64,000 bases of DNA from Bhargavaea beijingensis. GTDB lineage: Bacteria > Bacillota > Bacilli > Bacillales_A > Planococcaceae. Within the stretch, counting starts at the first letter, position 1. Each line of letters starts with the position of its first letter. The DNA lies in contig NZ_FNAR01000005.1 in NCBI RefSeq assembly GCF_900101985.1, forward strand, positions 62,001 through 126,000. Reading direction: 5' to 3'. The position numbers were made by a program, and so were the translations under genes. Of the stretch, positions 2,488 through 23,611 are shown one piece after another. Under the pieces are notes generated by a model. It had not been told where the DNA came from and searched no databases. It saw only the letters and a list, made by a program, of their open reading frames with translations.

Positions 2488-2498
2488 CTCATGCGAGA

Positions 2499-2570
2499 GT
2501 GATGAATGGTGCGCTGAGTGTGACGATTCGGCTCCCAAGAATGACGATTCAGCCTCTGAAAGTGACGAAT
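2499..2570 (+). repeat. 21-bp periodic array A (four units)
   Basis: A nine-base word close to RTGACGAWT recurs at 2499, 2520, 2541 and 2562, exactly 21 bases apart each time. Spacers of 12 bases vary but often read CGGCTC or CAGCCTC. The array begins 12 bases after the dagK terminator. Array B at 3108 uses the same word. Confidence 0.85.
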
Positions 2571-2628
2571 CAAAATAAAATTTATAAAAAACCATCTTTG
2601 TATTTTGCCGCTGTTGTAAGGGGCAGAA

Positions 2629-3051
2629 TTGAAATATGGAACACTTTCCGCAATCCGGCAAATCAGGAATCATATTTCAGGGGATTATTATGCGGATGGG
2701 GGCAGAACACGACAGGAGATTGAGTCGCTGGCAGATTATATACGGATTCGCAATAAACCTTATTTACCATTTCCTTTGCTCGAGATTATAGGAATCGCAG
2801 TCACGGATATTCATTGGAAGCCCGTATGCGAAAAGTGCTGGAGGAAGTTGAAGAGGATCACGGAGCGGCGATGGAAATGTCAATGCCAGTGGGAAACAGT
2901 CGATCCATACACGCGAACTTTGGAAAGATGGTTCCTGCTGAGGAGTCCTTCGGTCACCAATGAGCAAGTAAGAGAATTGTTTGGGATTTCGCAAACAGCT
3001 GCCGCTAATCTGCTCAGCAAATATCCGTTACAGAAGGTCGGCCAAGGATAG
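2629..3051 (+). pseudogene. Probable decayed C-terminal fragment with Cys pairs, possibly NERD-family
   Basis: An open frame of up to 140 residues without a clear ribosome binding site. The middle carries C-x2-C (PVCEKCWRKL) and C-x-C (WKCQCQ), resembling a zinc ribbon. The end (SVTNEQVRELFGISQTAAAN) looks like the helical tail seen in NERD-domain proteins of Bacillales. No NERD core is present, so this looks like a remnant. It is bracketed by two 21-bp repeat arrays. Family assignment is tentative; it could also be a small intact zinc-ribbon/HTH protein. Confidence 0.4.
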
Positions 3052-3107
3052 GCGACACGGTACATATGGGATTACAACGGGCGGTTGAAGCGGATAAAAA
3101 AGTGAAA

Positions 3108-3179
3108 GTGATGATTGGTAGGACGAGAATGACGAATTCGGCCACGAGAGTGACGATTCAGCTCCCGAGAGTGACGATG
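3108..3179 (+). repeat. 21-bp periodic array B (four units)
   Basis: Words of the form RTGACGAWT (the first is GTGATGATT) start at 3108, 3129, 3150 and 3171, again at an exact 21-base period. The array sits just past the terminator of the opposing Nudix gene, and its spacers resemble those of array A. Confidence 0.85.
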
Positions 3180-3196
3180 CGACCTCGCCCATACGC

Positions 3197-6610: not shown

Positions 6611-6802
6611 GTGCTTCGCATGTGGGGGCGAGTGCTTCGAAATGTGCCGCGGGTGCGTCCAAAGGCTGCGCGAGTGCTTCCATACAACGAGTCGCCGGAT
6701 TCTCTGGGCATGTTAATAAAACTGCGGGAGTGCGTCGAAATGTGCGGCGAGTGCACCCAAACTCTGCCTGAGTGCATCCAAATCTTCGCCGAGTGCATCC
6801 AA
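6611..6802 (+). repeat. 21-bp periodic array C (two blocks of four units)
   Basis: The word GTGCNTCSAA, with variants, starts at 6611, 6632, 6653 and 6674, then after a 56-base gap at 6730, 6751, 6772 and 6793. Spacing within each block is exactly 21 bases. Units are usually preceded by GA or CGA. The array fills the space between the cyd terminator and rlmCD. Because 21 is a multiple of three, several frames stay open across it, but none has a ribosome binding site, so I do not call a gene. Confidence 0.85.
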
Positions 6803-6900: not shown

Positions 6901-8268
6901 ATGGCTTACGCAGTCCAACAAAACGACCGGCTGATCGGCGAAATCACCGACCTGACCCATGACGGCTCAGGGGTGGCGAAGATCGACGGCTATCCGCTTT
7001 TCATCCCCGGGGCACTCCCCGGCGAAACCGTTGAATTCAAGGTCACCAAAACGCTCAAGAAATATGGCTTCGCAAAGCTCCTCAACATCGTCGAGCCGTC
7101 CGAAGACCGCGTCGAGCCGCCGTGCCCGGTATTCCCGGAATGCGGAGGCTGCCAGATCCAGCACCTGTCCTATGAGGGCCAGCTGGAGCGCAAACGCAAG
7201 ATGGTCCGCGACGTCATGGACCGGATCGCAAAGCTTCCTGATGTCCCGGTCCATCCGGTCAAAGGCATGGAACATCCGTGGCGCTACCGGAACAAGTCCC
7301 AGATCCCGTTCGCGGAGCGGGACGGCGGCCAAGTTGTCGCCGGATTTTTCCGCCGCGGCAGCCACACGATCATGGACACCGAGACGTGCCTGATCCAGTC
7401 AACCGAAGCCGACGTCGTCATGCGCACAATCAAGCACAGCCTGCATGAACTCGGCATCAAGGCATATGACGAACAGAAGGACAAGGGCTTCCTCCGCCAC
7501 GTCGTCATCCGGAAAGGGAAGGCGACCGGCGAGACGATGGTCGTCCTCGTCACCCGGACCCGTAAATTCAAGAAAAAGGACGAAGTCGTCGACCTGATCC
7601 GCGGCGTGCTGCCGGACGTCACATCGATCGTCCAGAACGTCAACGACCGCAAAACGAACGTCATCATGGGTGATGAGACGATTCCGCTCTACGGACCGCC
7701 CGTCATCACCGACAAAATCGGCGGCGTGACATTCGAAATCTCTGCCCGCTCGTTCTACCAGATCAATCCCGACCAAACAGAAGTCCTCTATTCACAGGCA
7801 CTCGACTACGCCAACCTCAGCGGCCACGAAACCGTCATCGACGCCTACTGCGGCATCGGCACGATCTCGCTCTTCCTCGCCAAACAGGCGAAAGAAGTAT
7901 ACGGCGTCGAAATCGTCCCGCAGGCAATCGAAGACGCCAAGCGCAATGCCGAGGTGAACGGCTTCACGAACACCCATTTCGAAGCCGGAGCGGCCGAAGA
8001 CGTCATCCCGCGCTGGTACAAGGAAGGCAAGCGATTCGACGTCCTCGTCGTCGACCCGCCAAGGAAAGGCTGTGACGAGCACCTGCTTCGTACGATCCTC
8101 GACTACCGCCCGAAGCGCCTCGTCTACGTCAGCTGCAACCCTGCCACACTCGCCCGCGACCTCCGCATCCTGGAAGACGGCGGCTACAAAACGAAGGAAG
8201 TCCAGCCGGTGGATATGTTCCCGCAGTCGAGCCATGTGGAAGCTGTGACTTGGATGGAACTATACTGA
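6901..8268 (+). CDS. rlmCD: 23S rRNA (uracil-5) methyltransferase RlmCD
   Basis: 455 residues, the length of B. subtilis RlmCD (YefA), which methylates U747 and U1939 of 23S rRNA. An N-terminal TRAM domain (about 1-60) precedes the iron-sulphur cysteines C75, C81, C84 and C163. The SAM-binding motif is DAYCGIGTISLFL, and the C-terminal catalytic segment reads VDPPRKGCD followed by YVSCNPATLARDL with the nucleophile Cys. GGAGG precedes the ATG. Two diverged copies of its 3' part occur downstream (11.1 and 14.5 kb), so this locus is an insertion hotspot while this copy remains intact. Confidence 0.94.
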   Translation: MAYAVQQNDRLIGEITDLTHDGSGVAKIDGYPLFIPGALPGETVEFKVTKTLKKYGFAKLLNIVEPSEDRVEPPCPVFPECGGCQIQHLSYEGQLERKRKMVRDVMDRIAKLPDVPVHPVKGMEHPWRYRNKSQIPFAERDGGQVVAGFFRRGSHTIMDTETCLIQSTEADVVMRTIKHSLHELGIKAYDEQKDKGFLRHVVIRKGKATGETMVVLVTRTRKFKKKDEVVDLIRGVLPDVTSIVQNVNDRKTNVIMGDETIPLYGPPVITDKIGGVTFEISARSFYQINPDQTEVLYSQALDYANLSGHETVIDAYCGIGTISLFLAKQAKEVYGVEIVPQAIEDAKRNAEVNGFTNTHFEAGAAEDVIPRWYKEGKRFDVLVVDPPRKGCDEHLLRTILDYRPKRLVYVSCNPATLARDLRILEDGGYKTKEVQPVDMFPQSSHVEAVTWMELY

Positions 8269-10446: not shown

Positions 10447-11057
10447 TGAAGAAATTCGAAAAGATGATTGTGGGTAAAACCATTATAGCAACAGCCGAAG
10501 AAGTGCTAGAACCTCAAGTGGAAATTTTGTTTGCTATATTAGAACAAATAGAAGATAAAGAATTAATTAATGGTTTCTCCCTTCAAATTGGTTGGTCTGT
10601 CTATTATTTATATGAGAGAGAATCTGGTGATTTTATATTGACTACTCCTGATTACTCTAAAAATCCATTTGAAGATATAACAGAAGACCTAACTTTAGCA
10701 TTGTGGGTACAACTCGAACAAAGTGATTTTTTGAGAAAGATTGATGTAGATGGTTTATCGACAAAATTTAGTGATAAAATCATACTTTCTAAAGGTGTGC
10801 TAGAACTCGAGGAAATATTCTTACAAAGAAATGGAGAAGTTGAAAAAGGAGATTCAGGATGGTATATAGGTTCTGTAGAGGATGATCGTACTGAAGAGTT
10901 GTATGCTCTATATGCATATCAACTTCTGAAAATTAAACCAGAAATTATTCAAGTTCTCGCTTTACCCAATGACTACATGGTTGTTTTTGAAGGTAAAGAA
11001 ATAAAAGCTGTATTAGATGAAAACGATGTAGATGTTTATAAAGGTGATACTGAATAA
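10446..11057 (+). CDS. Probable immunity protein for the LXG nuclease toxin
   Basis: 203 residues, acidic and cytosolic. It starts within the toxin stop codon (TAATG), the classic arrangement for a toxin-immunity pair. The C-terminal half (GDSGWYIGSVEDD, then LKIKPEIIQVLALPNDYMVV) looks like the Imm33/DUF2185 type of immunity domain; this family call is from memory and moderate. It is expected to bind and block the cognate HNH nuclease. AT-rich like the toxin. Confidence 0.7.
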   Translation: MKKFEKMIVGKTIIATAEEVLEPQVEILFAILEQIEDKELINGFSLQIGWSVYYLYERESGDFILTTPDYSKNPFEDITEDLTLALWVQLEQSDFLRKIDVDGLSTKFSDKIILSKGVLELEEIFLQRNGEVEKGDSGWYIGSVEDDRTEELYALYAYQLLKIKPEIIQVLALPNDYMVVFEGKEIKAVLDENDVDVYKGDTE

Positions 11058-11135
11058 TTCTCTGACTAAATCTTTGCAGAGAGAATTCAGCAGGTGATTT
11101 TGCCGGTTAGACCGGATACCTACACTGATTCGAAG

Positions 11136-11297
11136 CATTGTGCCGGACGTGACGTCAATCGTCCAGAACGTTAACGATCGGAAAACGAACGTCATCATGG
11201 GAGACGAGACGATTTCGCTCTACGGACCGCCCGTCATCACGGACAAAATCGGCAGCGTGACATTCGAAATCTCTGCCCGCTCGTTCTACCAGATCTG
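11136..11297 (+). pseudogene. Fragment of rlmCD 3' region (scar 1)
   Basis: About 162 bases closely match rlmCD positions 7605-7766 of this window with scattered, mostly silent differences (it encodes [19 protein letters not shown] in frame), then stop immediately after FYQI. The substitutions show it came from a diverged rlmCD allele rather than a recent local duplication. Confidence 0.85.
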
Positions 11298-11392
11298 ATA
11301 GGTAACTAATCAATGAAACCTCTGAAGCCGTTTCTCAGTCTAAATCATCTTATCGGCTGCAAAAATAAAGGAATTAGATAGAGGATGTCCAG

Positions 11393-14496: not shown

Positions 14497-14945
14497 AAGG
14501 ATGGCAGCCCGACGTTAGATCGATCGTCCAGAACGTCAACGACCGGAAAACATACGTCATATGGGCGACGAAACGATTTCCGCTCTTCGGACCGCCCGTC
14601 ATCACCGACAAGATAGATCTCCGCCCGCTCGTTCTACCAGATCAACCCCGACCAGACGGAAGACCTGTACTCACAGGCACTCGACTATGCCAATCTCAGT
14701 GGAACGAAAACCAACAACGATGCGTACGTCTTGGTATGATCTCCTTCTTTTTCACCAATTAGGAGAAAGAAGTGTATGGTTTGGAAATCAACCATCAAGT
14801 CATCAAAGACGCCGAGCGCAATGCTGAGCTAAACGGCCTTACAAATACCCATTTCGAAGCCTGAGCGGCTGAAGACCTTCATTCCATAGCTGTGCAAGGA
14901 AGGCAAACTGATCGACGTCCTTGTCGGCGAGCCGCCGAGAATAGG
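14497..14945 (+). pseudogene. Decayed rlmCD 3' half (scar 2)
   Basis: Matches rlmCD from about 7610 to 8070 in interrupted blocks: [12 protein letters not shown], a stretch missing part of the beta domain, [21 protein letters not shown] in a shifted frame, then an AT-rich substitution followed by EKEVYGLEI-like and NAELNGLTNTHFEA. Several frameshifts and stops make it non-functional. It begins at nearly the same rlmCD point as scar 1. The 300 bases before it (14180-14496) hold no gene I can support. Confidence 0.85.
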
Positions 14946-15020
14946 CCACGTCGAACACTTCCTCAGACAATTTTCATAGTAGTATAGGGTAGTATAGTTC
15001 GATGAAGAGGTGATAAAAAA

Positions 15021-23267: not shown

Positions 23268-23411
23268 TTTCGTCATTCATTGGTCTGGTTTCGTCATTCG
23301 TCGGCCGGGTTTCGTCATTCGCGCCCCCGGTTTCGTCATTCGCCGCCATCCGGAGAACGAATGACGAAACTTTTTCGTCCAATGACGAAACTGAACGGCT
23401 GAATGACGAAA
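23268..23411. repeat. 21-bp periodic array D with inverted halves
   Basis: TTTCGTCATT starts at 23268, 23289, 23310 and 23331, then the reverse complement AATGACGAAA starts at 23360, 23381 and 23402. Spacing within each half is exactly 21 bases, and the two halves face each other. The TGACGA core is shared with arrays A and B. The stretch 23412-23611 holds no gene. Confidence 0.88.
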
Positions 23412-23611
23412 TCTCATGCAGAATTTCCCCACTCCGGAATCATCGGGCAACCTGAAACTTATCAGCTCCCCGGTGGGCCAGCATCTCGCCGGATACAAAA
23501 TTGCTTCCCCGGACAATGACGCAAAGCGTGAGCCGATAATCGGACTTTCCTGCAAAATCGCTCAATGACAAGCTGTTTTACCGTCCCCTCAATGATACGT
23601 CTGGATGAGTT

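Follow-up and report, generated by a model that had tools for sequence, protein, structure and literature searches.

The window, the whole 64,000-nucleotide stretch of the Bhargavaea genome (Planococcaceae) that was analyzed, contains four arrays in which short degenerate words recur at a fixed step, together with the remnant of a gene that encoded a NERD, zinc-ribbon, and HTH-like protein (Table 1). This genome is labeled G000, and the seven other genomes of the genus are labeled G001 to G007. A sequence-only reading of the window had reported the arrays, and all four were located where it had placed them, with a step of exactly 21 bp in each. Repeats of 7-mers in the window peaked at lag 21 (74) and lag 42 (55), compared to 25 at the next-best lag and a mean of 9.0 (standard deviation, 9.4) over lags 8 to 119. 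The excess extended to the whole of G000, where 79 pairs of RTGACGA lay exactly 21 bp apart, compared to 0 for the reversed-pattern control. For GTGCNTCSA, the array C word, which that reading had recognized as different but with the identical period, 60 pairs with at most one mismatch (33 exact) were found at this distance, compared to 1 in the control. The period was locked at 21 bp, not spread around it: 511 of the 548 same-strand ATGACGA pairs less than 160 bp apart were at 0 mod 21. Five of the seven other genomes of the genus held 62 to 133 RTGACGA pairs at 21 bp, and G002 and G004 held 3 each; the 53 genomes from outside the genus held 0 to 7, and controls gave 0 to 2. The grouping of arrays A, B, and D by a shared core stood only in part. 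The TGACGA core is present in all three, but it belongs to two word families, GAGTGACGAWTC in A and B and GAATGACGARAYYR in D. Grouping the three by TGACGA is misleading because A/B and D belong to different NERD clades (see below), and a single TGACGA element was rejected on these two clades.

Table 1. Arrays and NERD gene remnant in the 64,000-nucleotide window
Feature	Position	Strand	Description	Basis
Array A	2495..2572	+	Four 21-bp units, word GAGTGACGAWTC; left flank of NERD element	Sequence; orthologous arrays beside intact NERD gene in G005 and G006
NERD/Zn-ribbon/HTH-like gene remnant	2626..3096	+	C-terminal half, one in-frame stop	tblastn, profile match, shared flanks of orthologues
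Array B	3104..3180	+	Four 21-bp units, word as in array A; right flank of NERD remnant	Sequence
Array C1	6609..6684	+	Four units, word GAGTGCTTCSAAA; cognate NERD gene G000:C41:209893	Sequence; comparison of genomes
Array C2	6728..6802	+	Four units, word as in C1	Sequence; comparison of genomes
Array D, left arm	23268..23341	-	Four minus-strand words (GAATGACGAAAC on the minus strand); cognate NERD gene G000:C41:184625	
Array D, right arm	23360..23412	+	Three plus-strand words; word-start step over the center 28 bp (7 mod 21)	

Comparison with the other genomes showed what the array sites look like elsewhere in the genus. At the A/B site, G001, G005, and G006 have an intact NERD orthologue in the same position, and in G005 and G006 the intact open reading frame, the product of which is a NERD-domain protein, is framed by two arrays of its own version of the A/B word. 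In the window, the gene is reduced to its C-terminal half, which was recognized by a tblastn match of 83.7% over 153 amino acids to residues 166 to 318 of G006_C40_119837 and by a profile match (G000:C38:64647-65096) with one TAG. In G003 and G007, two terminators lie a few tens of base pairs apart at this site with no array or open reading frame between them. The C site lies immediately 3′ of the cydX terminator and carries GAGTGCTTCSAAA in G000 and G006, GAATGTCTCGATAC in G003, and GAATAGATAGAA in G002 and G004; no array was found at this site in G001, G005, and G007. Inspection by eye of the C site (eight genomes) and the A/B site (six genomes) showed no target-site duplication, terminal inverted repeats, or fixed end. 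Two other observations concern the surroundings of the C site. The rlmD-like methyltransferase gene (window 6901-8268) has partial copies at 11013-11313 and 14507-14961, and the 8.3- to 14.9-kb part of the window that these copies border looks like an insertion adjoining rlmD. The cydX-rlmD interval of G002 (G002:C2:118900-121480; L253/L254) has extra sequence, apparently three related lipoprotein genes, beside the 21-bp array that G002 has of its own.

The arrays were also sought with a word-blind detector for periods 12 to 48, run on 200 kb each of G002 and G004 (20 stretches). Period 21 gave 11 matches in G002 and 26 in G004 (one of the latter a run of N), and other periods gave at most 2 each save period 42, a multiple of 21, with 9 and 13, respectively. 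Four of the 20 stretches contain the C site or a blast match; on the remaining 16, period 21 gave 5 (G002) and 19 (G004) matches, period 42 gave 5 and 7, and the counts elsewhere were at most 1. More than 15 words were read, many of them starting with GARTG. With one period and different words found in different species at one orthologous intergenic site, these words support the proposal that the arrays form one class of dispersed elements in which the word can be exchanged. The words are 11 to 14 bp long and the spacers are 7 to 10 bp, compared to repeats of ∼23 to 50 bp with spacers of similar size in CRISPR arrays, and on these lengths the CRISPR array was rejected as a candidate.

The arrays had been described as lying straight after a transcription terminator, which holds as a tendency but not as a rule: 25 of 55 arrays had a terminator-like site facing them at a distance of at most 100 bp, compared to 27 to 31% of places drawn at random from the same gaps. 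The count excludes 8 arrays located at the end of a stretch or overlapping a predicted gene. Arrays avoid divergent gaps. Over all 20 stretches of G002 and G004, 16 arrays were in co-directional gaps, 9 in convergent gaps, and none in divergent gaps, compared to 81, 30, and 42, respectively, among the 153 background gaps of at least 100 bp; 2 further arrays overlap predicted genes. The 16 stretches without a prior match gave 9, 7, and 0, with 1 overlap. Regions of G000, chosen for containing arrays, gave 15 co-directional, 13 convergent, and 2 divergent, with 4 overlaps and 2 arrays at ends. Some G004 arrays (L263 13848-14191 and L265 3703-3971) are satellite-like, with a higher-order period of 42 or 71 bp.

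The D-type unit consists of YGAATGACGARAYYR followed by a free spacer, and its degenerate positions show a purine or pyrimidine preference. The D arrays seen were mostly dyads or half-dyads in which minus-strand words come first and plus-strand words after, and array D itself is a phased dyad. Among convergent D-word pairs, 456 of 558 were at 7 mod 21. In the D-word dyads, for example at 23268-23412 of the window, one arm is shifted by 7 mod 21 relative to the other.

Such dyads, and the location of the arrays between convergent or co-directional genes, would be compatible with a function as RNA in the form of long hairpins, terminators, or protein-binding 3′ untranslated regions. Watson-Crick pairing outside the word was near expectation at 46 D-word dyad centers, the largest excess being 17 compared to 12.2 expected, and therefore did not point to selection for a hairpin. 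Within the word, one degenerate column did pair across the dyads above expectation (31 compared to 22.5 over the 46 centers). With no covariation outside the word in these dyads, a hairpin RNA was rejected. Many arrays, moreover, are plain direct repeats, and the exact 21-bp lock suggests a helical constraint rather than one on RNA, so that we regard a role as RNA as highly improbable. Because 21 bp is 7 codons, the arrays could also be read as coding for heptapeptide repeats, and the D-word frame is indeed almost stop-free (1 of 413 and 5 of 1,232 codons). However, most stops in this frame are excluded by the word itself, dyads carry words on opposite strands, and other words have stops in the matching frame. 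Coding heptads were rejected on the dyads and the stops, and this reading is scarcely conceivable.

A search for the NERD domain (PF08378) gave 73 matches in the eight genomes of the genus, 8 to 13 per genome, and any match at all in 3 of 14 control genomes. Linkage to arrays was examined for the 64 NERD genes of 250 to 500 amino acids, those above 500 amino acids (6 of the 73) and three fragments below 250 being set aside, and the control consisted of 206 other genes in the G002 and G004 stretches, each with 250 amino acids or more. First, a 21-bp array of three copies was present within 900 bp of 48 of the 64 NERD genes, compared to 36 of the 206 other genes (P = 4e-17). Second, the array started no more than 100 bp past the stop codon in 41 NERD genes compared to 14 other genes (P = 2e-20). 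Third, arrays were present on both sides of 25 NERD genes compared to 2 others. When the four match-bearing stretches were left out of the control (n = 171), it retained 25 genes with an array within 900 bp, 12 with an array after the stop codon, and 1 with arrays on both sides. Finally, phased 8-mers at lag 21 were found upstream of 31 and downstream of 51 of 67 NERD genes, compared to 0 to 11 at eight other lags.

The link did not hold for all NERD genes. None of the six proteins of more than 500 amino acids was linked to an array, and no array was detected at 16 of the 64 genes, including a clade of eight with a similar domain plan. This clade, with one member per genome (G007_C10_8205, G001_C19_340845, G005_C1_326960, G000_C28_594, G006_C36_73063, G003_C6_326926, G002_C7_340022, and G004_C3_1736579), lacks three-copy arrays in the DNA examined, which downstream of G000_C28_594 amounts to 59 bp, and is a natural control. 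Where arrays lie on both sides of a NERD gene, their relative orientation was mixed in the genus (14 inverted, 8 direct, and 1 tied) and direct in all eight cases from other genera, and there is therefore no single layout.

The word itself also follows the gene. In a tree of the 64 NERD genes, those with one word form clades with a single exception, G000_C41_237747, which adjoins a C-word array and the orthologue of which has another word. Sister clades can have related words, for instance, CGCGCATAGAA and AGCGCTCATAGAA, or GAGACGTTGATTATCT and GAAACGTTGTTTATCT. Over 25 words, which were read by hand for the tree labels and the Mantel test, word similarity correlated with protein similarity (r = 0.40, reached by 0 of 5,000 permutations), and the correlation persisted when two orthologous variants were left out (r = 0.27, 0 of 5,000 permutations). 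The match of clade and word is inflated because orthologues with the same word share flanks by descent.

A second kind of correspondence was seen in the dispersed arrays. Pairs of GAGTGCTTC with at most one mismatch numbered 40 in G000, 39 in G006, 4 in G007 (scattered, with one mismatch), and 0 in the five others; pairs of AATAGATAGAA numbered 68 in G004, 12 in G002, and 0 in the six others. Arrays of these two words are thus confined to genomes with the cognate NERD clade, the four scattered pairs of G007 aside. Six genomes are rich in the D word, as counted with an RTGACGA pattern that also takes in A/B words, and all of them except G003 have its NERD clade. For these three words, dispersed arrays and the cognate clade agree in 23 of 24 genome-word cells with the four G007 pairs scored as absent. 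G003 has 108 RTGACGA pairs without a D-clade NERD gene, and in G007 many A/B-word arrays were listed without an A/B-clade gene, which means that arrays exist without the gene. One word exists in two sister versions, one in G004 and one in G002; when the eight genomes were searched for exact matches, neither version turned up outside its own genome (7 pairs in G004 and 4 in G002). In five orthologous array regions compared between G000 and G006, differences were found at 36 of 471 word positions, 81 of 514 spacer positions, and 102 of 665 flank positions. Words thus change at half the rate of spacers (P = 8e-5). For the cooperative DNA protein that the sequence-only reading had suggested might bind the arrays, the NERD family, which flanks the words, co-occurs with them, and co-diverges with them, is a specific candidate.

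These results bear on whether the arrays might arise and spread by tandem duplication and recombination independently of NERD, with NERD genes merely sitting or inserting there. Ordinary local duplication is evident from the 42- and 71-bp higher-order repeats in some arrays, and some gaps between orthologous arrays amount to whole units. It is countered by words that track NERD clades, by dispersed arrays that bear the species' own version of the word, and by a linkage specific to lag 21, and we consider an origin without NERD quite improbable.

The array-linked genes encode proteins mostly of 310 to 370 amino acids with a NERD domain, a Cys4 zinc ribbon, and an HTH-like C terminus. In a Pfam scan, the NERD domain scored 39 to 65 bits (cutoff, 22.1) in eight of eight proteins and was the sole match above the cutoff. 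In all 30 array-linked proteins chosen, G71, G74, E75, D110, E123, K125, Q158, and four Cys residues were invariant, and E75, D110, E123, and K125 are the invariant PD-(D/E)XK catalytic residues of the predicted nuclease. Because a single-sequence AlphaFold2 model was unusable (pLDDT, 34) and a profile search of solved structures gave weak matches (best E value, 0.02), nearly all over the zinc ribbon, the HTH-like part was read from the sequence by eye. Searches of defense libraries gave only weak or sub-threshold matches, with E values of 0.002 to 0.02 in PADLOC (RTasNERD-Hel among them) and 17 to 21 bits in MADS6 compared to a cutoff of 460. The dN/dS ratios were 0.11 to 0.27 for nine pairs of array-linked NERD genes and 0.11 for one pair from a NERD clade without arrays; the ratios indicate that array-linked NERD genes are under purifying selection. 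In 11 of 12 word groups, different species have at least one flank of the NERD loci with the same word in common; for the D-word gene, the upstream flank is not common to all species. This sharing of flanks means that the genes largely stay put and the arrays scatter. A 2022 paper (PMC9040797) describes the NERD domain as not previously studied in any bacterial protein, to the knowledge of its authors. The proteins described here have in common with PF08378 the NERD domain itself with its acidic/lysine motif. They differ by the link to repeat arrays, of which no report was found in open-access PMC.

The gene-array link is not limited to the genus. NERD genes were found in 96 of the 101 sampled Planococcaceae genomes. 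In 16 other genera, 40 NERD genes were selected by hand among the matches listed, on the basis of their size (269 to 395 amino acids as called) and genus, and 29 of them gave an array call within 900 bp; at lag 21, 15 were positive upstream and 29 downstream, compared to 0 to 4 at eight other lags. A class-wide profile search of Bacilli gave 30 loci, 14 of them outside the family, in eight other families. An array was present at 10 of these 14, mostly upstream, in the ∼1.5 kb examined on each side, with 9 upstream and 3 downstream at lag 21, 8 and 4 at lag 42, and 0 to 4 at other lags. Array dispersal was counted in Bhargavaea genomes, and the counts beyond the genus concern the link between gene and array.

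On balance, we favor the explanation that a family of putative NERD nucleases has its cognate DNA sites in the arrays and spreads them, as a PD-(D/E)XK counterpart of REPtrons. It builds on the observed linkage, clade-word correspondence, presence/absence match, word conservation, invariant catalytic residues, and purifying selection. Each Bhargavaea genome holds several NERD paralogues, most with a private 11- to 14-bp word repeated beside the gene every 21 bp, which is two helical turns. The C-terminal zinc-ribbon and HTH-like part would read the word, and protomers would sit on successive words along one face of the helix, outward from the center in dyads, the exact two-turn spacing allowing them to lie side by side. 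The nuclease may then nick or cut at or beside the arrays, and repair may copy them into intergenic sites where they are tolerated. Arrays at sites 3′ of genes and away from promoters would do little harm. The gene would remain fixed at a conserved locus, and the arrays would spread, outlast its loss, and decay. RAYT transposases, which are thought to spread REP sequences, offer a parallel for such copying by repair. More tentatively, the system may be class-wide in Bacilli, with several paralogous PD-(D/E)XK nucleases per genome, most with a private helically phased word, each cutting at or beside its arrays and so spreading them. In that case, it would parallel REPtrons by convergence, with an enzyme other than HUH, and would constitute a natural library of orthogonal DNA-binding specificities.

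Several of the same observations would fit binding without spread, in which the arrays are NERD binding sites, the protein is a regulator, a chromosome organizer, or a defense nuclease, and host selection keeps the arrays. These are the stable position of NERD genes and the purifying selection on them, the stronger conservation of words than of spacers in orthologous arrays, the frequent placement of arrays directly next to the gene, and the weak matches to defense proteins in PADLOC and MADS6. On the other hand, array sites turn over between species, with different words in one place, and some genomes have arrays but not the gene. Maintenance by the host in this way is rather unlikely in our estimation.

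Spread of the arrays by the NERD protein, the explanation we favor, invites comparison with known systems. Three papers on REPtrons (RAYT or TnpA-REP with REP, BIME, or REPIN sequences) describe a mostly single-copy gene with no sign of mobility, flanked by its own repeats, with cognate repeats that track gene presence, unrelated spacers, and common inverted pairs (PMC8266576, PMC2817692, and PMC3116915). In the same manner, the NERD gene is mostly single copy with no sign of mobility, is flanked by cognate repeats, and is positionally stable, dispersed intergenic copies track it with the exception of the D word in G003, spacers between repeats are unrelated, and inverted pairs occur. However, the enzyme here is a NERD PD-(D/E)XK protein and that of REPtrons is an HUH Y1 transposase of the IS200/IS605 type. 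A REP sequence is also a 20- to 40-bp imperfect palindrome with a GTAG-type tag, whereas the words here are 11 to 14 bp with a period of 21 and no GTAG. Most words are non-palindromic by inspection, and two contain palindromic stretches, GCGGCCGC and AATCGAACGATT. The NERD-array system may therefore work like a REPtron, yet it is not one, because its enzyme is not an HUH transposase and its words are not GTAG-tagged palindromes. The nearest known parallel thus uses an unrelated enzyme.

Phased sites for a single protein are also known from Tn7-type ends, which have several TnsB sites ∼22 bp apart, and from plasmid iterons. The arrays resemble both in having multiple phased words that would be sites for one protein, and Tn7 in having inverted arms; they differ in occurring as tens of sites per genome and in having no terminal inverted repeat or target duplication recognizable by eye. 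No transposase or Rep gene was found at the linked NERD loci looked at. The STRR sequences of cyanobacteria are degenerate intergenic heptanucleotide repeats. The arrays share with them the short period, the degeneracy, and the intergenic location but differ in the period, which is 7 in STRR compared to 21 here; we know of no gene linked to STRR.

With these arrays, NERD, a widespread domain of obscure function, gains a concrete candidate DNA partner. The association accounts for a large class of Bhargavaea intergenic repeats that has had no name until now, and the gene-array link is found in other Planococcaceae and other Bacilli as well. If the proteins read the words, genomes would supply tens of protein-word pairs from which to learn how recognition changes. 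If NERD proteins also spread the arrays, bacteria would have at least two unrelated types of enzyme that keep populations of extragenic repeats.

A scan of named genomes with the D pattern gave, among the matches listed (at least 80 loci), 57 in Bhargavaea and 23 in distant phyla. Most of the latter had irregular, heptad-like spacing; they were judged to be another class and were rejected as members of the class described here. In contigs of Verrucomicrobiota and Planctomycetota (L110, L117, L120, L127, L128, L166, L183, and others), the GAATGACGAAA word occurs in irregular, heptad-like clusters, often with an inverted copy after them, which look like a separate REP-like class.
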